Source: Vitis vinifera (Eukaryota; Streptophyta; Magnoliopsida; Vitales; Vitaceae). Taken from it: a stretch of 64,000 nt of DNA. Shown in pieces: positions 45,036-64,000 of this stretch. A model generated the notes under the pieces. It was not told the DNA's origin. It worked only from the letters and a program-made list of their open reading frames with translations, and did not search any database. The first letter of the stretch is position 1. Every line of letters begins with the position of its first letter. A program made the position numbers and the translations under genes. Location: positions 547,501-611,500 of the forward strand of contig NC_081811.1 of NCBI RefSeq assembly GCF_030704535.1, read 5' to 3'.

Positions 45036-45568
45036 TACCACTCTTCTCCATATGAATGTCATACTCATTTATACTTATACTAGGAATTAACCATCCAAAG
45101 GCTTTCACAAGACGCTCATTCTAGAGCCTTTACTCATCCTGAGGCGCTTAATCATCTATCTCACACCCACTTATCTCAAAGATACCCTCATTCCAGAACC
45201 TTTACTCATCCTAAAGCGCGGTCTTAATTGATCATCCCGAGACTTACAACAGGCGAGCCTAACCATCTCTGGTCTTATATATCCATTTTGGATCACTCCT
45301 TCAATTGTCATTTTTGAAGGGCGTAACATTGTTGCATGCCTAGCAACTTGTTATACAGATGGTGGAGGGAGTTGTGGAAGGGGAGACATTCTACTTTGAG
45401 TTGGTTGGTGAAAGCACCAAATATGATGAGGTGCCTAATTTTTTTTTTTTAAACAAGGAAACTTATATTTTAACTAGAAAGGGCAAATTAATATGCGAAT
45501 ACTCATAGACTTTAGGCCAAAATAGTCTTGGGAGTAAAACAAAAAATATTTTAAGCCATTCTCCTAGG
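45036..45568. other. Spacer with a diverged ~80-bp repeat
   Basis: Two imperfect copies around 45105-45225 share CCTTTACTCATCCT-A-GCGC. No coding sequence is seen. Confidence 0.4.
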
Positions 45569-45846
45569 TTAAGAAATGTGAGTTTGAAGCTTTGAGAAAC
45601 TTTTTGCAATTCTTGACATATTGAGAATTTACTTGAGTGATTTATAGAATATATAGACCTTATGATAACAGATAAGAATAAGGGACAACCTATGATAGCT
45701 AATAGATAAGGATGAGAATGAGACTGCTCACAATAAAGGGATAGTCTTAAGAGAGTTCTGATAAAGAGTCCTACAATCTGAAAGAGTAATATAGTCTTGT
45801 AATAATTCTGATAAGACATTTTCCATGTATGGATGACTCTTGAACA
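45569..45846 (-). repeat. 3' LTR of the copia element
   Basis: Similar along its length to 48186-48437 (shared TATAGACCTTATGATAACA and CTAATAGATAAGGATGA). On the minus strand it begins TGTTCAAGAG. Confidence 0.8.
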
Positions 45847-45879
45847 TGCTCCATCAAGCGAGAATGTGGGGAATGAACA

Positions 45880-48183: not shown

Positions 48184-48185
48184 AG

Positions 48186-48437
48186 TTAAGAAATAAGAGA
48201 TTTTGAAGCTTTGAAAGACTATACAATTCTTGATATATTGAAAATTTATTTGAGTGGTTTAGAAAATATAGACCTTATGATAACATATAAGAATAAAGAA
48301 AAGCTTATGATAACTAATAGATAAGGATGATGAGAATGAGACTTCCCAAAATAGAGAAAAAGAAAATCTAGAGTCTTGAGAGAGTTTTATAACTAATTTT
48401 GATTAGTCATTTTCTATGTATGGATAACTCTTCAACA
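48186..48437 (-). repeat. 5' LTR of the copia element
   Basis: Begins TGTTGAAGAG on the minus strand and ends beside the primer site. It matches 45569-45846. Confidence 0.8.
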
Positions 48438-49651
48438 TCCCAAACTTATATTCAAACTAACTATTTTGTTGCCCGTTAAAACCACATGGTTTAATTTGTT
48501 AAATAACATTGAAATTGCATTTCAAAATATGGTTTCATAATTTGTAGTGAAGATGTGTATTTTCAAAATGCAATTTCATATATTGAACTAAAAGCATTTT
48601 GAAAATATGGTTTCATATTTGAATTGAAACCACATTTTTAAAGTGATGTTTTATTTTTGAACTAAAACCATATTTTGAAAATACGTCATCACTTTAAAAT
48701 AATAATAAAAATAAAAACCAATATGACATCTGTGTGGACAAAAGGAGGTTAAATGGAACATAAGTTTCAAAAAAAAGGCTAGAGTTGATATTATTTGGCC
48801 CCAAAAACTGCCATTATGGCTCAAAATTCCAATACTTTAGAAGTCGGTCAATTCAGCTTAATTATAAGAGTCCGATATGTGACACCCTGAATTAAGCTGG
48901 TGGCATCAGACCTAACATATATACAAAACACCAAAAGCCAAAGGCCAAAAACTTAGAAAAAGACGGTTGTTTGAGTGGAGAAATCAAGCTTAGGTTCATT
49001 GAACAAAGATTATTTTTAAATTTACATTGTTTTCAACCAGATAATAATTAAGCAAAAACCAAGTTAAACGACCAAAACAAAATCATTAACTGAATAGGAC
49101 CCATCAAATGGGATCTCCTTTTCCTGGAAAAATTAAACCCCTTTCAAACTCAGGTCATGCTAATCATCATAAGAAAGTTGAATGATGAAACATGCTGCCA
49201 GCTGAGGTTTATCAAATCATAGGAGAAAAATAACCAAAATTTGATCCAAATTCATTTTGTAATAAAATTCAAAATTCAATTGTTGTTTCTCCATCTAACC
49301 ATTTCTTTTGAAATGATAAATATTATATAAAAAATAAGCATATATTCAATTAGAAATTGTCACACCATTAAAAAAAAAAAAAAAGTCCCTTGATTTTTTT
49401 TTTTTCCTCTTGTATATTTTAAGTATAATTTTTTCATATTTTCATTTGATAATCCAGATATAATCAAACACTTTTAAGGGTTTGGGTTTGGCATGATACT
49501 ATTTGGTGCCATAACATTTTCCGATATGACGATCCATGAAGCATGACAAAGCCGATTTAAATGACACAAAACAATAATACTGTAATAATTTTGGTCACAG
49601 ATTTGGCATAAATGCCTTCCTGCTGCTGAAACTAGAAGCAAATCCATTCTC
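48438..49651. other. Spacer and 3' region of the GCN5-like gene
   Basis: AT-rich, with short runs that alternate AAACCACATTTT-like and ATTTTGAAAATATGG-like motifs at 48490-48690. The part nearest 49651 is probably the 3' UTR of the minus-strand gene. No other gene is seen. Confidence 0.4.
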
Positions 49652-52600
49652 CTATGAGTGAGTATGCTGAATTTTGCTATACTGGAGGCTTGACTGAAAT
49701 TTGACTGAGAAAAAGGATTCCAGCCTGCAAATTCTCCATCAAAGTGAGGAGCCAGTGATATATATATACACACTACATATCTGAGCATGGATGCAGAGAA
49801 AAAAAAGTAAAAAAAGAAAAGAGGAATTGAAGTATGAGAACTCTTGCCTGGTGGCACATTTATAATATATAGTATGAGGTGAGTTGTATGTGCGAGCGTT
49901 GGCAAACATTCTCCTCACATCTGCCAGAAACATCTCCAATGTAATATAGTATTGCTCAGACTCTATCCTCTTGGATATCGTCTTTAAATCTGCACATAAA
50001 TGATTTCCATTAAGGCATCACAACTTTGATATATATACTGATGAGCTAGCCAAATTAATTTGCATGAATTACTCAATTATAATAACAACAGATGAGAGTT
50101 TTCCAAAATAGCTCCAACCCATGCAATGACGAGAAGTGCCATGGTATACAAGCGCCATTAAGCCCTTCTAAAAAGTGCTTACATTGAACCATTTTTCTAC
50201 AAGCACCTCTTCATATACGCGGACATTGATACTTTTTGGAAGCATTATTATTTTCATTTTTTGTAATGGTATTGAAGATTGTTCATTGACAACATGTCTT
50301 TTCTAGAAAACATGGCTAGGGTTTTGGCAGAAAATCTATAATTCATCAGATTGTTGCACCCATTGACGAAAACTTTCATAAGCTTCCTAGAATTGTTGTT
50401 AATTAGAGTGTGCAAGTGTTATATCATGCAATTACATATACCATGATGCATAAATGTAATGTTTTTCTTTACTGCACAAGATACTAGCTGCAGTGGTGTT
50501 AGAATGAAGAATTAATATTGATAATGCAGTTCTCACCCATGGGATCTTTGATTATGTCATAGTAGCCGGGCGCGTTATCAGAGTCAACCGGTTCCTTGAA
50601 AGGCCAAGCATCTGGATGGTCATAAATTTGCTGCTAATTATATAAGAAACCCCACTTGTTAATATAACACAAACAAGCAAAGCCTAGAGTATCCCACTGT
50701 CAACTACATAAAATAATTGTTGCAGTTTCTATCACATTTTAAGCCTAGGGCTTAAACAAATGCTTTTAAAAGCTTGCCTTCAAAAGCGAGCGCATGAATG
50801 TCGTTAAGGGTTCTCGATTTGATACAGTGTCTGCAGAAGCATTCGATGTTTTAAACCGAGAATGGCCATATTGATCAGGGGTCCAGCCTGCATCCTCTGT
50901 AATCAAATTTATCACCAACTTCAGATTGGTACCAAGAAATTCATCAGAAATATACAAACACAAACTGAAGCAGCAACTTGACACATGAATTGTCAAATAG
51001 TATGTAATCAACAATTAAAATTAATAGTAACATTAACTATAAGTTACAGTATATAGCTAGAAATTATGGTCTCCTGTGGGAAGATCTTATAACTACTGCT
51101 CTAAAGATGAAGACCATTATGACAATAAAGCATTTTTCCTTCAGTTCCAAGTAACTGAGAAAATCAAAACTACCCAGTGGGTCATATCTGATCAACATAC
51201 ATGCATCCATCCAGTTTTCAGTACTAAAAAAATGAAAATAGACAACACGAACATCATCTCAACCAAAAATAAGTACAGAAATCTTTCCAATGGACACGAC
51301 AAATCTAGCAAAGGGTTTATATGCAGTTCTTAGGATGAACACAGATAAACTCAACTGGAATCAAGAAAAAAGATGGTTTAAGATGCACTCGTTAAAGTTA
51401 AGGAACTTACTCAAACCAGGAATATCCTCTAATTTGATGGGCCTTGCAGGAACACCGTCATCTCCCTGAATAAATGATAAGTTCTAGGTCAGAACCAATT
51501 CTGAACCAAAAAAAGAAAGAAAGAAAAAAAATTAAGAGCAAAACCGAATCTGAGATATGCTGTACTTTTCATGCAAAGTTAAATACAAATGCTTATATTA
51601 AAGTTTATTGTCATCAAATGGAAGATTGGATTTGTTTGGATGTCAAGAATACAAATTCATTAACTAGGAAGCAGAACCAAAGTTTTTCATTCAAGATAAG
51701 AGATTTGTCAATAGAAGAAAGAGCTTTAATTTTGAAGATACAATGTGCCAAACATGACTGAGAACAGTGCCTCTCTTTTATTTTAACATGGGGACACTTA
51801 TTTTGCTGTCTTGATTATCAAAGGTTCATGATCTTTAAAGAGATTAATTCTTATTGTCTACAAGGAACATAATTCAACTCCAAAACAGTCAGATTCTTCA
51901 AACCATTTCTCCATCAAAAAATAAACAAGTGAATAGCCACAAAAATAAAATAGAAAAAGAAGTTTCAAAAAAAAAAAAAGTAAGGATTTCAGTAAACATG
52001 TTATCTAAGAAAATGATTAATCCTTGTTTTCCAGTAAGGCCTGTTCCTTTTGATATGTTGCTGTTCTAAGAACAAAGAACACAACCATCTGCAAGAACGG
52101 ACATATCATAATCATTTAGAACTACTGTCATACAACATATACTCATATAACCTTCAAGCATCAGTGCAAATGATCAATCTGCCAATATATAGAATGAATT
52201 TACTAAAGGGCCGGCTGGAAGCTTGCAAATGGTAATAGTTAATAATTGACAGCAAGTACCTTCTGAAAATCAATGCCAGGGTAGACAATTTCACAGTTGG
52301 ATACTTCTCTTATCCTTTCATTGATAGCCTATCATTAACAAAATAACAAGAACATCATTGAAGGTTAAAGCATAATTTTGCTAAGAAAGTGTCAAAAAGT
52401 AAAAGCAGAATTTAAGACATAAGGACTTCCAAAAACATCCTGTGAATGGAAACAAAAAGTTGCAGCTTCTAAAATGTAATTTCATAAGAATAAGTGACAA
52501 AATTAATATAGTGTAGGGAATGACTTAGCTGAAGTTGATGGGACACTAGGTTCTCCAGCTAGTTAAAGTGAAAAACAATGCCTAACAACTTAAAACTACT

Positions 52601-55600
52601 ACACTGGCTTCGCAAATTAAATTGATTTATGCCCTCAATGTCTGACTCGAGTGGCAAGGAATTGGAGTGGAAATGTGAGAGGTTCGAAGTTAAAATCCCA
52701 AAGAAAAAGAGAGTAACTTATAAAAGGAAATTGAGCAATTTACCTGCCTCTGATGGCTAATCATAGTCGTTAAGTAAGAATATGGAAACTTTGGATGAAG
52801 TTCACATTCCATTAGGATTCCTCCATCATAGGCTTTGATATATCTGAAATGTTGTAAATTTCATATTAACAGTCTACACATTGTGCTAAGTAAGGAACTA
52901 TAACTAATGAAATACATTCAAATAGGTTCTCTCTTAGAATAAGATATATATTCAGAAAATCAAGGGGCCACTCTCAGTAGCCGTGCTGAATAATAAAAAA
53001 AGAGATCAAATTAATAACAGGCTAAGTGGCAAACAAAAGGGCTCGCCCAGGTAATACAGGTGATCATTAAAGAGTGACACCATAAAATCTTGCTTAAAAA
53101 AGGCTTAGGAAACTGATTAAGGTTGTATGAGATTTTTCACTGGAAAAAAATCATTTTAATGGTCTTAAATCATACAAGGGTTGTGTATCAAACAATCATA
53201 CAAGGGTTGTGTATCAAACATACCCTTGCCATCGCTCTTTCTCCAAAGTGATCTTTTTAAAACCCTGTGACAAAAAAAAAATGTAGAAATTAAGAAGAAA
53301 ATGCAATCCAACCAATATGAAACTTAGAAGAATATGAAGGCCACTGACTAAGAGGAAAATGTTGAGCCAATGAAAACTGAGATTTTACTGGAGCATGGCT
53401 GCTTGTAGAATTATATAAAGAAGGATGCTGATGCTCTAACAATTTAAAGTCCTCATAATCAACTAAAAGAATGAAATTATGATACAATTAAAGTTCTGGG
53501 ATAAGTTTAAAATGGAGCAGGCAGAAGATTTTGTCCATTTGTCCATTATCTCTGTTGGTATTCTATGAAGAGAAAGAAATCCACCATAGATAAAAGAGAA
53601 CTAATTTCATGCCTACAGATTTTTACAGAAATTAAGAGTCCAAAAGCAAAAGGGGAATGAAAACTACATATGCAGGCCAAATAATAAACACACCTGTTTG
53701 ATAAAATAATCAACAGCATTGTTATCTGCGCATGTTAGAAGATGTGTCACCCCATCCATATTGCGTGCATGTTGTTTTAAATGGTTCATTAGTCTAGCAC
53801 CACAGCCTTTTATTTGCTCATCAGCCATAATTGCACCAAAGGCTATCTCCACAAACTGTTGGCTACAAGATTCAAGGGATAGAGTCAGTGGAGAGAAGTT
53901 TCTTATGGCTTAGCACATGATGAAGCCTGGCTCTTACCAAGTCATTGCTTATCTTTTGTTAATTGTGTATTAACAGGGAAGGGAATATGTAAGTTCATAA
54001 AGCAATAAAAGGTGGCATCCAACCATACTTTTCTTTTTGCCTTATAGGAAAGAAGACTTTCATTAAATATATGAGGCTTGGGGCAGCAGGGAAAGAGATA
54101 GAATAATAGAATTGATGTTTTTCAATGGGGTAGAAAAAGAAATAGATGAAAGAGAGAGAGAGAATTCAACACTCTTATATGCAAAGGAAGAAATGATAAT
54201 GGCAATATAACAGGAAAACAAACGTTACCTCAAATATGGACGGTATGTGATACCGCCAACGACCTGATTCCGTCTGATAATCATTATGGATTTATGGTTT
54301 CTGTAACAGTAGCAATGATGAAAAACATATATGATCATACTCTGGAAGAATTAGAAACAGCATTAGATTACTAAAGAGAGATGGCAGGCAATACAAAGTT
54401 ACAAACTATTTGAAGCATCAGAAACCAAAGTTAGTCCTTAACATGAGTTAGCATGCTGTTTTATCTCTGCCAGATTCACCACTTCATATTTACTGAATAT
54501 TAAAACAGATTCAAATGCCCAAGTTCTGAACCAGACTTGAAACACAACCCAGACACTTAAGAGTACATGGTTCAGTGAAAAAAGAACTTGAAAGCATAGA
54601 TAATAGGAGTTCATATAAAAGAGCATGCCCCCAAAATCAATAAGTGGTTCGATAAAGCCTATATCTCCATACAAAATAAGAAGAAAACTATCATATATCA
54701 AGAGCATACTACTGGTTTTTGTTTATTTATTTATTATTTTTTTTCATCAAGTCCTACTTAATTGGGTTAGACAGTTGAACCATTCAAATGAACTGATCAG
54801 TTCAAGAATCGGTATGATGCCCCTTTTAGTGTATCTTTAGATCAATGTACAGCTTAATATAAGAAGCATGCTCATACAGTTCCTCTATAATAGTTTGTGA
54901 ATTTGTTGAGATGCTCACATGTCCAGGACAAGACGAACAATGTATTCCCTTGGCACATCTGGTAGTTGCCTGGAAAATAGGTTCTTCAATTCTATCAGCC
55001 TGAGAAAACCATAATTAAAGCAAAGAACAAATTGCATGTTAATGAAATTTTATTCCTGAATTGCCAAAGCTAATAGTCATTATGCAGTTTCTGAAAGCTT
55101 ACAATAATCTTATGTAAAAATGCATGATAAAATTTTTTTGGATGAATGTTTATAAAGTGAAAGATAGCCCTTGAAGGGATATTTGTGAAGAGAGAATTAG
55201 ATACCAAATCATGTGCTCATCAACACCATCATTTTCAATGAACACAAATTTAAGTCTTCCTGCTTCCTCCTGTAAATTCCAGATGGCACACTTCTTTAGA
55301 GTGAAGGTCTAAAGCATTCATTACATGGTTTAATGAAACTTTTGACAAGGGAATTATCCTTTTTAAAAGCATCACTGCATGCTTACTGGTTGATCATTTA
55401 ACACCCATATGTTTAAACAATCTTAGATGATTTAAAATTCAAAAAACCATTTTAGTATGACGACGAGAAAAGAAACCGTTTAGTAAAATATAAAATTAGC
55501 CAGGAAATTAGAACAAAATAGACACACATATCCACAAAACAGAAAGAAAGAAAAAGTTTGGGAGCCAATAACAGTGGAAATAAAGGAAACACAAGGGATT

Positions 55601-58600
55601 ATGTGCCTGGAAAAAGTTGCTTTATCTATGTGGCACACTTTCATCTTGGTTTTATGCTACATGCCCCTTCAAATTTGAAGTCATTGCAGATAGTGTATAC
55701 ACATATAACCCACACAATGAAACATCAAGGCACTTCTCAAAGACCTAGAGGAAACAAAGCATTTAGCATGTGCTAGTTAAAACCTATGATCAGCCTTTAT
55801 ATTGGAAACTTAATTGACTGTATCTTGAATATATATCATCTATATATGCTCCTAATTTGAAAAATCAATTCTAATTAAAAATAAATAACTTAACAATACA
55901 TTTGAATCTTACACACAAACATGTGCATGCATGCCTGCATAGACACAGATATACATATATGTTGGCAAATTAGCAAGACATCAGTGATTATTAAAAAAAG
56001 TGTTAGCATGACCAACCTCACTATCCAGAACCTTCTGTTGCAAGATACATAGTAATCTGAAAAGATAAAACAAGGGTGGATAGTGAGAACATGCAAAATC
56101 AGCTTGCTATATGCATATTTAGAAAATTCTCTATTGATGACAAGAATAGAACTTCTAATATTATCGTGCCTTTTGGAGCTAATAGAGCATATATCTTTCA
56201 TATATTTATGAGCAGCTAAGACCCCACCTCTAGACCAAACTTCTAATATTACATGAAATACAGTGGCAATTGATCAAACTCCAAATGGATATAAAAACTC
56301 CGAGCAGAAAGGAAAAATGATGTATCATGATTTAAGCAGAATCCTAGCATTGCAGATCTCTGCCATATTGGAAACTGCTTTATTCACTCTTGGGCATGTG
56401 TTAGTCAATAATGTCATTACATTTTATCAGGTAACCATATGCTAAGCTATCATTGTTGACAAGTACCACCGAATAGACGTCATTTTGGAAACTTATACAA
56501 GATCTCAATCAAGCAAAACTTGATATACTAGAGCACCTAGATTCTAGGGTTTACATGTATTACTGCAGAACAAAAGCATTACTGGCACTAAGTGGATACT
56601 GCAATGCATTAGTGTGCTACATCCACCAAAATAATAATAATAATAAGGAAAAAGGAAGAAAAAACCAATCCTAAACACTATGTTCAACTAAGGATTAAGA
56701 CTAGCTCCTTATCATTGAGATGCGTATGTTATAACCATGTAATATTGATCATTGACACAAAAAGCGAAAGGACCTAAAGATAGAAATTTTTGGACATAAA
56801 TTAATAAAATTGTTACTTGAAAATATACCAATGCATATTAAATATTGTTCAATTTTGTAAGGTAAGACATGCTTCTATGTTCTTCAAATGTGAATTTACT
56901 TTTTGTTGCTCTTGAAAGATTCTTATAATAGCATTGACATAGTTCTCGTTTGCAAGGGTAAACAGCTAATAAGAAAACTTTGACATCCAGACTAGTACAT
57001 ATAAAGCATACAAATTAACTCCAACTTCAAAAATTATAGGTTGCAAGGTAAACAAGATAGATCGATCTCAAACCTAATCACCTCCTTACCTTGGCATTCT
57101 ATGGGAAAGAAACAGCATATCAATGAGGTCAGGAGGGGCTAAAGTTCTTATTAACGTCTCCTTGTCAACTACTTCGTTGTTTCTGTCTTCATACACAATC
57201 TGCATAATTATTTACTTCATAATAAGATTCTCACTACATAAGACATTGAAGCTTATGAAAAAGATTAACTAGTGCTTATTAAGTTCAATCAAATATCTAA
57301 ACTAAGATGCCACATAAAAATTTCCATCATAAGCCAGAAGAACTTGTATACATGCATGAATACATACATATATACATCTGTGAGTATATATTCACATGAG
57401 ACTGAAAGTACTAAACCTTAAATTGAGCAGTTTCATTATCGTAGCCCACAACCAATCCCATTATTCTCTCGCCACAAAATATTTTAGAGACGTATCTACC
57501 AGCCATGTCTTCATTTTCTCTGATAAGTTTTTCAACTTTTGAAACTTCCTGGAAAGAAAACATCTGAATTAGATGATTCAACATAGATCAAAATGAGTGT
57601 ATATATATGTATATACACTCTTCTTTACAGTGTTTAATTACATCTTGAATTGATGAAGATCTGTTGGTGCTCGAGGAAGTTCCCCAGCTATAAATTGATT
57701 GATTTTGGTTGGATGCTTTTGTTGCTCTTCCTTTTCCTGTTTCATAAGAAGATTGCAATGCAAAACAACTTAAAATTTCTTATGTTAAAGGCAAAGACCT
57801 AGAAAATGATATCTTCCACTGACAACTATAGTATACCCATAAACCCTATATAATTCAATTTGATTGAGAATGTACTAATGACTTTCAGTTTCCATAAAGA
57901 TATTCAAATAATTCTACTAATGAATGGCAACAAGAACGAAAAATGACAAAAAGAATAAAATGTTTAAATAAATCTTTCAGTTCATTATCCAAACCTCATG
58001 TATACTGAATTTAGAAACCATGGTTATCAAGAAAATTAACGATGTAAGATACTAACATAGAAGCTCATACTGGGTTCTACTATAGATGAATCAGAAAATT
58101 TCTCTTGTATAACATTCTGGCAAAAACTGCCAGCACGCATTATTAAGGATTGGCTAACTTTTCAACTTAATGAAAGCTAAAAAACATCACTTGGTATTCT
58201 TTTGCTAACATTGAATTGTAGTAAGGAACAAGGATACACAAGGCTTCTTTGTGTTTTTTTTTTTTTTTTTTTTACTTCCTCCTCTTTTTTTTTGGTTAGG
58301 TTATAGATGATTGAACTTAAATAGTTCAGTTGTGCCTACTGCAGTGCATTACGGTAAATGTCATCTGTTATGTACTCCTGTAAATGCTAATAACAATATA
58401 AGTCATCTAAATCTTTGAAGATCTATACGCATCCATAAGATTCACTAAGTATCATGGTTAGTCTATTGTCTGGAAAGATAGAACTATTTATCAAACTCAA
58501 AAGAGCCAGACTTTATTCAAGATCAAAAGCTTCTAATGTACTTGATTCAATTGTACTTTCAATTTTTTCATTCACTTCCCATAATTGGGCTACCAAATAC

Positions 58601-58739
58601 ACTACCAATAAAGTGATATGAAGAGAAAAATAAAAAAATCAGGAACAAAAATAAGGTATATATATAAGAGACACAAGCATACATTCTCCAAGTTCTCACC
58701 TTTCTGCCTTCTTTTAGTTTCTCCAACTCCAGAATTCAT
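49652..58739 (-). CDS. GCN5-like histone acetyltransferase with N-terminal Tudor-like domain and bromodomain
   Basis: Seventeen exons join in frame to 498 residues: 58700-58739, 57642-57736, 57417-57548, 57090-57199, 56017-56056, 55205-55269, 54919-54999, 54229-54300, 53694-53862, 53224-53264, 52744-52843, 52260-52328, 51411-51465, 50778-50896, 50537-50630, 49848-49989 and 49652-49724. Residues ~60-110 are Tudor-like ([20 protein letters not shown], then [11 protein letters not shown]). Residues ~140-285 are the GNAT domain, with general-base E217 (FVEIAF) and acetyl-CoA loop QIKGCGA (228-234). [11 protein letters not shown] (~359-369) is the Ada2-contact region. Residues ~397-480 are the bromodomain, with Asn463. 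GCN5 acetylates histone H3 in SAGA. The usual ~200-residue Ser-rich/acidic N-terminus is missing. Changes such as [10 protein letters not shown] (usually YADNNAVGYF) mark a divergent paralogue. Introns after 50778 and 49848 start with GC. Confidence 0.88.
53168..53219. repeat. Two-copy 26-bp tandem repeat beside a GCN5-like exon
   Basis: AATCATACAAGGG-TTGTGTATCAAAC occurs twice without differences, ending four bases from the 53224-53264 exon, just inside the intron. Confidence 0.9.
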
Positions 58740-60382
58740 TTTTCAAAAACTGAATCTAAAAACCCTAAATAAGATCTGGCAAGCATCATAAGCAAAACAA
58801 ATTCAATCAAAAAGAAGAAAAATCATAGAAAAAAATAAGAAGGAAAAATAAAAGAAAGATAACCTGCTACTAGAAACTTTTTCAAAATATGATGAAATGA
58901 GCAAATATGTGTGGTAAAATGATTATTTATTTGAGAAATTTTAGGATTTGATTTGTTAAAATATCCTAGCATTAGACATTAATTATGCTAACCTTTTGTA
59001 ATTATATTTAACTAATTAAGAAAGGAAAATTTTGGAAAGAATCAAGAGAGCCAGGTAGATTGTGATATGTGACACTTACTAGTTTGTTGACCGATGACCT
59101 TAATGCTACACCATTGGCGTGATGCAGTGCTGTGGTCCCTTTTATTTTGCTATTAATTTAAATACTATGATTAGAAACATAATATATTGGACAGAGAACA
59201 ACCACATGTGGCTTGAGCAATTCAAAATTATGAAGATTTTAATCACATGTGCAGACTGAAGCTTAAAATTTAATGCTCATTAATGGAGTTCGTAAAAATT
59301 TTGAAGGTTTTGTTTAGAAGAATCTTGATTTTTGGGTTTCATCATGATGAAAATTAAGAAAAAAAAGTAATATGGTGAGAAAAAAAAGAGAACTTTACCT
59401 TTTGAAACAAATCATTTTCAGTTTATGAAGTGAAGAGAAAATTAGGGAAAACTAATCTGTTAATAGGTCTTAAAATGAATGTCAAATTAACACATGATTC
59501 TACGAAGTTCTTTATGTACTTTCTCCCTTCTTGGCTAAAATGCGAGATGGTTCAATTGATAAGATATCAGACCATGATTTCATTGCAGTTTGCAGGTTGG
59601 GCTGTTCTTATTTTCCAATATTTGATTGAGTTTATCCCCACATTTTGCAGTATATGCACAAATAATTAATAGCGCTGGAAAGATATAATTTAGTCTTAAA
59701 AAAGCTTGTGTTTGTATCTCAATGTTATGCGTATTATATCAAATCAAAATTTCGTTTTTCCTTTTATTTTTTGTGCTTTTCATACTGCAAATGGGGAAAG
59801 CCGACAATATGGGGTAAATACGGGCTCATATTATCTTTTGAGCTGGGAATAAATTGCTTACATGGGGTAGTGGATGTCAGCCTAATATTTTTGTCAAGGC
59901 ATTGTCTATCGTTCAAGGTTGTGATTGCATGAATTTGTCACATATTAGTAATGGAATCATTAATTTGTGTGAGTGCTTTAAGTAGATTGATAATTTTAGA
60001 TCAAAATTTCTATATATACTCCTAACTTGGGTCTTTCAAAATCCTCCATTGGACTACTTGTTTATTTAAGATCAAGGTTGTTTGCAAAATCGCTTAGTAG
60101 TAGATAGATATAAATGAATCAACAAGGTTCTTAAATTATGATTATCTTAATTCATTTTTGTAATAAAAGATCACAAAGAGTAAATGGGTAATGTTTTTTT
60201 TTTACCAAGTACTCTTTTTGTGCTCTATTGTGTAATCAATCCAACCTTAATGACAATCGATCCATGTTTATTTTGTATGTGAAATTTCGAATTTACACTA
60301 TGATGGTGAGTTAATTGATTATTAATGAGGATATATATAGGCTAAACTTGAATCATATGTGCTTAGGAAAGTAGTAAAATAA
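58740..60382. other. Upstream region of the GCN5-like gene
   Basis: Promoter and 5' leader, then AT-rich spacer. Frames at 59430-59669 and 59708-59932 have no recognisable domain and atypical composition. No gene called. Confidence 0.4.
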
Positions 60383-63310: not shown

Positions 63311-64000
63311 GAACAGGATAAAATGAAGTAAAAATTAACTTTTCAAATTATTGTTGACATTGATTTCCTAAAAACATTGATCACTAAGCCACAAATGCAT
63401 GTTTTATTAGAAGGGAATACTCTTTTAGACAGAAAGAACATGTTTTCTCTTCCAGATGAAGAGTTTTGACTCTATGTTGAAGCACAAAATCTCCTAGAGC
63501 TGCATGTCATGATGAAATGATGCTATGCTTCCAAAATGCTAGCTTCTATCTTCTACAATTGCAACCATGTATGGTTTTTTAACCTAAAAAACACCTACAT
63601 AATATATAGCAATGAGATTCTCATATATATATATATATATAACAAGTATGAGGTAAATTTAATAAAATTAATTATCTTAATGTTTAGAAAAAAATACAAA
63701 TAGGCCAAATATCAATTCTAATACCTTGTCATGCCAATATGGCTAAGAAACACAGTTGATGGATCAGTTAGATCGATGGAGCCAAAGTTGGAAGCAGTAC
63801 CGTCTCCTTATCAGATACTTCATTGCAGTTGTGTAAGCTTAATGAATAAGATCAATTGGCCAATTATCCAAGAAACTTCAATGAATGCTGGTTGAAATTA
63901 AAGAAATATCTACATAAATACTTTCAATAGGAAAAAAGTGCATTGGATATATTTCATATGGGATTTGTTAACAGTAATAGTGAATATAAACCTTAAACAG
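63311..64000. other. Right flank, no gene recognised
   Basis: AT-rich with a TA dinucleotide run (63626-63641). A stretch at 63755-63840 has less AT bias but gives no domain I recognise. It could hold upstream pieces of the INO80C copy. Confidence 0.35.

Follow-up and report, generated by a model that had tools for sequence, protein, structure and literature searches.

A predicted Tudor-GCN5 fusion gene beside the canonical GCN5 of grape

Results and Discussion

GCN5 is a highly conserved chromatin enzyme. In a 64,000-nt window of the grape genome (C7:547501-611500; genome size 495.6 Mb), the minus strand encodes a GCN5-like protein whose N-terminus and promoter appear to have been replaced with those of a small Tudor gene. 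(C7 coordinates follow whole-contig numbering; all others are window positions.) We consider it probable that this is a chimeric gene of the grape genus, in which a GCN5 duplicate that had lost its first exon came to lie behind the promoter and exons of a Tudor gene, and that it encodes an active, alternative GCN5. This reading is favored by the exon match to canonical GCN5, two common GC-AG introns, the tandem, same-strand position, a colinear second Tudor copy, a Tudor match above the family cut-off, an orthologue in Vitis piasezkii, low dN/dS, and substitutions that avoid invariant columns. Against it, the fused branch carries about six times the derived residues of the canonical one (63 vs. 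11), and the 439-aa lengths of the orthologue (P0001) and of the catalogued grape protein VvHAG8 mean that exons 1 and 2 may be untranslated or replaced by others. Judging by sequence and by the published listing, what is newly recognized is the Tudor layout and the source of the 5' half, a decayed neighboring copy; the gene itself is very probably already listed as VvHAG8.

Structure of the fused gene

Seventeen exons between positions 58739 and 49652 join in frame without a stop to give 498 codons, as an earlier, sequence-only reading had reported; this count holds when the exon 15 acceptor at 50630 is used. The acceptor is a NAGNAG (50628-50633), such that a start at 50633 yields QQ and 499 aa, whereas a start at 50630 yields a single Q and 498 aa. 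The latter gives a 94-nt exon, the length found in canonical GCN5, and the single Q seen in V. piasezkii P0001; the affected position sits immediately before the bromodomain. Fourteen of the 16 introns are GT-AG, while introns 14 (50777-50631) and 16 (49847-49725) are GC-AG.

All exons lie on the minus strand. Exon 1 (58700-58739; residues 1-13, with the predicted start codon) and exon 2 (57642-57736; residues 14-45) are absent from the 439-aa orthologue. Exon 3 (57417-57548) encodes the first part of a PTM/DIR17-type Tudor domain and holds Met60, where the orthologue starts, and exon 4 (57090-57199) encodes the remaining Tudor domain and the residues next to it. They are followed by a 40-nt linker exon, exon 5 (56017-56056), which is present in V. 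piasezkii P0001 too. The HAT region begins in exons 6-8 (55269-55205, 54999-54919, and 54300-54229), has its core, with Glu217 and the acetyl-CoA loop, in exon 9 (53694-53862), and ends, together with the linker, in exons 10-13 (53264-53224, 52843-52744, 52328-52260, and 51465-51411). The bromodomain with Asn463 is encoded by exons 14-16 (50896-50778, 50630-50537, and 49989-49848), and the C-terminus and stop by exon 17 (49652-49724). The 93 nt of intron 2 (57549-57641) keep the reading frame open; a transcript retaining them would still encode an unbroken protein, and a database ORF (P0121) reads through this intron.

Domains of the fused protein

Comparison with Pfam profiles placed the PTM/DIR17 Tudor domain (PF21743) at residues 62-101 with 32.5 bits for the whole protein, and at residues 62-102 with 34.8 bits when residues 1-140 were used by themselves (cut-off, 27.2). 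The margin is modest; the score was lower in the orthologue P0001 (28.6 bits) and in exon 3 alone, where the domain is cut by the intron (24.9, below the cut-off). Even so, the profile corroborates the Tudor-like module that had been proposed for exons 57417-57548 and 57090-57199. It was the one Tudor-type match, with no MYST, Tudor-knot, or SGF29 family match among the Pfam profiles. The acetyltransferase domain (PF00583) was found at residues 165-270 (33.7 bits; cut-off, 20.7) and the bromodomain (PF00439) at residues 397-475 (84.6 bits), both in the 499-aa numbering. Catalytic Glu217, the acetyl-CoA loop, and the acetyl-lysine Asn463 of the bromodomain, which the earlier reading listed as kept, are all present. 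The acetyl-CoA loop motif of these enzymes is Q/RxxGxG/A; the loop here, QIKGCG, keeps QxxGxG and has a Tyr to Cys change inside it.

Canonical GCN5 as the parent

The canonical grape GCN5/HAG1 (VvHAG7, XP_002275146) lies upstream on the same strand, in 13 exons at C7:629806-619329, with 13.1 kb between its coding region and that of the fused gene. Its product in this genome differs from P0003 at a single one of 541 residues, and the HAT-bromodomain part of P0003 is common to a partial V. vinifera protein, P0011. Over 355 codons of HAT core, linker, and bromodomain, the canonical and fused proteins are 76% identical. Exons 6-17 of the fused gene (65, 81, 72, 169, 41, 100, 69, 55, 119, 94, 142, and 73 nt) pair one to one with canonical exons 2-13 (65, 81, 72, 169, 44, 100, 69, 55, 119, 94, 142, and 67 nt). 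Since the same two GC donors occur in canonical GCN5, the GC-AG introns of the fused gene were inherited, and similarity persists at the level of intron DNA (74% between 55368-54910 and C7:627411-626947). Exon plan, GC-AG introns, and tandem same-strand position therefore bear out the earlier claim of a duplicated GCN5.

The two genes differ at their 5' ends. Canonical exon 1 (549 nt) encodes 183 Ser-rich, acidic residues and is replaced by exons 1-5 in the fused gene; P0003 has no PF21743 match, in agreement with the earlier description of canonical GCN5 as a protein with a Ser-rich, acidic N-terminus and no Tudor. Unlike the fused gene, the canonical one also has few derived residues. Local alignments found no counterpart of canonical exon 1 in introns 4 and 5 of the fused gene, so continued constraint on the GCN5 part would need an upstream start.

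In the protein tree, the fused protein and P0001 form a pair with full support and P0003 branches next, at an unsupported fork; the case for sisterhood with canonical grape GCN5 therefore owes more to gene position, exon plan, and similarity of introns than to the tree. The fused protein and P0003 share departures from the majority at only 14 of 357 columns, and all 14 states are found in other plants too. Identity of the fused protein to P0003 (75.6%) is barely higher than to P0004 (75.1%), as expected from a long branch.

Origin of the 5' half

Between canonical GCN5 and the fused gene, at C7:612537-611222, lies a degenerate second copy, colinear with exons 1-4 and the promoter region of the fused gene; its last part is window 63722-64000. 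Its exon-1-like part has an ATG (C7:612351) 6.1 kb upstream of the fused-gene ATG. Positions 58950-58606 align with C7:612537-612214 (64.5% over 355 columns), the stretch 58833-58690 is 75% similar to the copy (E about 1e-16), and exons 2 and 4 are homologous to C7:611883-611740 and C7:611325-611222, respectively. By DNA alignment, the exon-4-like part (63722-63825, minus strand) has in-frame stops, and the central part of the Tudor exon has no counterpart; most of the copy extends beyond the window, to C7:612537. Such a second, colinear copy suggests a small Tudor gene, present in tandem, as the source of the 5' half. Since about 200 bases before the ATG (58740-58950, minus strand) are also shared, the fused gene looks to start with the 5' part of that gene, which suggests that it carries the Tudor gene's promoter. 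The C7 DNA between canonical GCN5 and the decayed copy also includes a stretch rich in imperfect GACCGGTTGA-like units, with three exact copies on the minus strand.

Homology to the decayed copy stops at ~57087 and homology to canonical intron 1 starts at 55368, or possibly at 55576 (score, 56 vs. a maximum of 55 in 60 shuffles), which would place the fusion junction between ~57087 and 55368, around exon 5. The earlier idea of exon shuffling stands insofar as a GCN5 duplicate gained a Tudor module; what was gained does not look like an inserted pair of exons, but rather like a promoter region and first four exons, by gene fusion. Exon 5 was also compared with the Tudor gene and with GCN5 intron 1 as a possible remnant of either, and neither gave a score above chance (best scores, 25 and 33 vs. 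95th percentiles of 35.5 and 33.0 in 200 shuffles).

A full-protein search of the same genome gave no other close copy; the nearest Tudor elsewhere, at C8:15119348, is 34% identical (E = 0.02). Searches for a free-standing relative of the N-terminal part were negative as well: residues 1-140 within the full-protein search had one match among 105 candidates (P0001), and the 140 aa alone matched one of 11 candidates, P0121, which is exons 2-3 read without splicing from the same or a near-identical grape locus.

The gene model might instead be an artefact that joins a separate, small Tudor gene to a 5'-truncated GCN5 pseudogene whose frame was kept by chance. The neighboring copy does show such Tudor sequence decaying here without GCN5 exons, exon 5 has no clear origin, and its donor (AG/gttggt) is weak compared with the usual splice consensus. 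Set against this, 17 of 17 exons are in frame, substitutions avoid invariant sites, the V. piasezkii protein has the same junctions from exon 3, and a 439-aa V. vinifera product has been printed, at least as a listed length (PMC7473812). Moreover, the pairing of exons 6-17 with canonical exons 2-13, together with the second copy of exons 1-4, argues that the gene model is beyond chance; we regard an artefact as very unlikely.

Orthologue and annotation

A whole-protein search of about 5.8 billion proteins returned 715 matches, 120 of which were listed; because the method relies on 5-residue words in common and on targets of about 275-873 aa, it could overlook more distant cases. According to the precomputed Pfam column, PF21743 occurs in one of the 120 matches listed, V. 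piasezkii P0001, which stands for a cluster of nine sequences at 90% identity. P0001 is a 439-aa Tudor, HAT, and bromodomain protein that starts at Met60 of the fused protein, to which it is 99% identical over 88% of the length (5 of 439 residues differ), and its exon junctions are the same from exon 3 on. The same architecture thus exists in a second Vitis sequence, the sole one with a Tudor among the 120 matches listed of the 715, and the Tudor-GCN5 layout is apparently a genuine, lineage-restricted architecture.

A paper on grape lists VvHAG7 (XP_002275146.2; chr7 77,994-88,805; 417 aa) and VvHAG8 (XP_010651956.1; chr7 89,628-110,743; 439 aa) as tandem genes whose exon-intron distribution is conserved, gives Ka/Ks < 1 for all duplicated pairs, and includes an expression heat map (PMC7473812). 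XP_002275146 is also the grape GCN5 of two papers on SAGA (PMC4532415; PMC4604261). The printed ends of VvHAG7 and VvHAG8 are 21.9 kb apart, compared with 22.2 kb between the canonical and fused-gene stops. Since VvHAG8 is the tandem partner of VvHAG7, is 439 aa long, and has matching spacing, the fused gene is very probably the already catalogued VvHAG8. In the main text of that paper, from which the word Tudor is absent, VvHAG8 is printed only as a HAG family member, while the fused protein is read here with a Tudor domain; no Tudor-GCN5 fusion was reported in the titles and abstract openings of the open-license PMC literature searched. Studies in grape that take VvHAG7 and VvHAG8 for a simple pair of duplicates may therefore compare two differently built proteins.

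The printed length suggests that VvHAG8 probably starts at Met60 too. Since P0001 and VvHAG8 agree in this, neither annotation supports residues 1-59 (encoded by exons 1-2 and the first part of exon 3) as coding sequence; the PF21743 match falls within the 439 aa. In addition, VvHAG8 as printed starts about 0.8 kb past the end of VvHAG7, a long way upstream of window exon 1, which suggests an annotated 5' part unlike exons 1-2.

Divergence and selection

Over 355 codons, dN and dS between the fused gene and canonical GCN5 were 0.127/0.828 (NG86), 0.122/0.669 (LWL85), 0.135/0.705 (YN00), and 0.129/0.696 (ML), i.e., pairwise ratios of 0.15-0.19, and the GCN5 part is therefore not decaying freely. 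Differences were polarized with 32 other plant GCN5s (the alignment holds 34 of the 120 listed proteins), which assigned 63 derived residues to the fused side and 11 to the canonical side and left 12 unassigned (Tajima-type test, 63 vs. 11: chi-square 36.5, P = 1.5e-9). If dS is assumed to be equal on both branches, so that each receives half of it, and the unassigned sites are also divided in half, dN/dS comes to about 0.30 on the fused branch and 0.07 on the canonical branch. Changes on the fused side fell in 20 of 172 outgroup-invariant columns vs. 43 of 185 variable columns (Fisher P = 0.005); this avoidance of invariant columns implies that constraint acted on the fused branch for at least part of its history. 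A large part of this constraint may be older than the fusion.

The derived residues of the fused and canonical proteins number 33 and 2 in the HAT region (162 columns), 17 and 5 in the linker (86 columns), and 10 and 4 in the bromodomain (96 columns). The linker, which meets ADA2 in other GCN5s, is present in the fused protein. With so many changes in the HAT core, activity may be reduced, and it is conceivable, if somewhat unlikely, that the gene is active but its acetyltransferase weak or dead, the product acting instead as a regulator, one that would compete for ADA2 with canonical GCN5 and deliver a Tudor domain to SAGA. Besides the HAT share of the 63 derived residues, this would fit the loss of one residue after Phe270 and the position of the changed invariant columns, 14 of 20 of which are in the HAT region and 10 of 20 between residues 216 and 263, the segment that holds Glu217 and the acetyl-CoA loop and appears, as judged from sequence, close to the active site. 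However, Glu217 and the QxxGxG loop are kept, and dN/dS of the HAT part alone is still low (NG86, 0.108/0.714).

The same excess of derived residues (P = 1.5e-9), together with the loss of one presumed cage aromatic from the Tudor domain, would also suit a relaxed duplicate that was formerly useful but is now fading in function, with the Tudor end as a neutral hitchhiker. We think this unlikely, since the frame is open in two Vitis sequences despite a dS of about 0.67-0.83 to the paralogue, and these two differ at just 5 of 439 residues.

The Tudor module and putative methyl reading

The Tudor region shows three strands and a helix in sequence, but its fold was predicted with low confidence (block means of pLDDT, 42-53). 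Two structure predictions of P0001, from alignments of 34 and 77 listed proteins, were poor overall (mean pLDDT, 48.8 and 56.8); the bromodomain, which matches PCAF/GCN5 bromodomain structures, was the sole usable part. The top Foldseek match of this low-confidence model was a yeast Gcn5 HAT chain with a bad fit (TM 0.14/0.22, rmsd 15.6), and no Tudor structure was among the matches listed (50 of 1226). A PDB sequence search with the Tudor part gave three matches, all at chance level.

The best PF21743 match in the genome is a DIR17-like ORF of 211 aa, with its domain at C8:15119363-15119506 uninterrupted by an intron. Indeed, the four most complete PTM/DIR17-like domains elsewhere in the grape genome are single open frames, whereas that of the fused gene, alike in scoring above the family cut-off, is split by an intron. 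A PDB search with the C8 relative gave 14 weak matches, the best being "Transcriptional regulator" 7de9 (E = 0.046), followed by ARID4B and 53BP1 (E at least 0.37). In our alignment of the window Tudor with the C8 relative and two C6 grape domains (C6:20184003 and C6:21970085), which we take to be PTM-like, the Phe of KxF and the Tyr of VYED are kept, but RNN replaces GD[F/S/C] and an Ile stands where the others have Tyr or Phe. By the weak 53BP1 alignment and the cage numbering of Tudor domains, this Ile would stand at the position of a cage aromatic. A cage that still works in methyl binding is possible but not indicated; contact with protein or with DNA is equally possible for this domain. 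With this substitution and the weak fold prediction, the potential reader of methylated Lys/Arg proposed by the sequence-only reading lacks support, and a function in reading methyl marks would be speculative. By extension, we find it distinctly unlikely that the grape genus has a single-chain reader-writer, i.e., a GCN5 with a built-in Tudor reader and under another promoter, through which a lineage-specific SAGA would acetylate according to a mark read in cis, without dependence on SGF29.

Comparison with other systems and proposed origin

Some MYST acetyltransferases carry a Tudor-knot or chromo-barrel. Like the fused protein, they combine a Royal-family fold with an acetyltransferase, but they belong to a different HAT family from its GNAT domain. 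SGF29, a double Tudor protein that binds H3K4me2/3, is a separate subunit of the SAGA HAT module (PMC4604261). There, the Tudor reader and GCN5 are neighbors on separate polypeptides, whereas the fused protein has its Tudor in cis, as one divergent domain of another family. Since SGF29 already links a double Tudor to the HAT module, a Tudor in cis would be a variation on a known partnership.

For the chimeric gene that we favor, we propose that the ancestor of the GCN5 genes was adjacent to a small Tudor gene of the PTM/DIR17 type, and that tandem duplication brought the Tudor gene ahead of a second GCN5 copy, whose own exon 1 was lost. Transcripts from the Tudor promoter would splice the Tudor exons onto GCN5 exon 2, as homology and the annotated orthologue suggest, and the product would keep HAT core, linker, and bromodomain. 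It could then enter the SAGA HAT module as an alternative to canonical GCN5 in the catalytic role, with an expression pattern of its own. In place of the acidic, Ser-rich N-terminus, its Tudor module would offer one more contact with chromatin or protein, and assembly with ADA2 would be combined with altered targeting of acetylation. If this is true, the fused copy is a readable case of a chromatin modifier gaining a module, with the parental enzyme and a Tudor relic beside it.

Just downstream of the fused gene are a direct repeat (45568-45847 and 48185-48438, 74% similar) and, at 48520-48700, small inverted and direct repeats; both are perhaps the remains of transposons.
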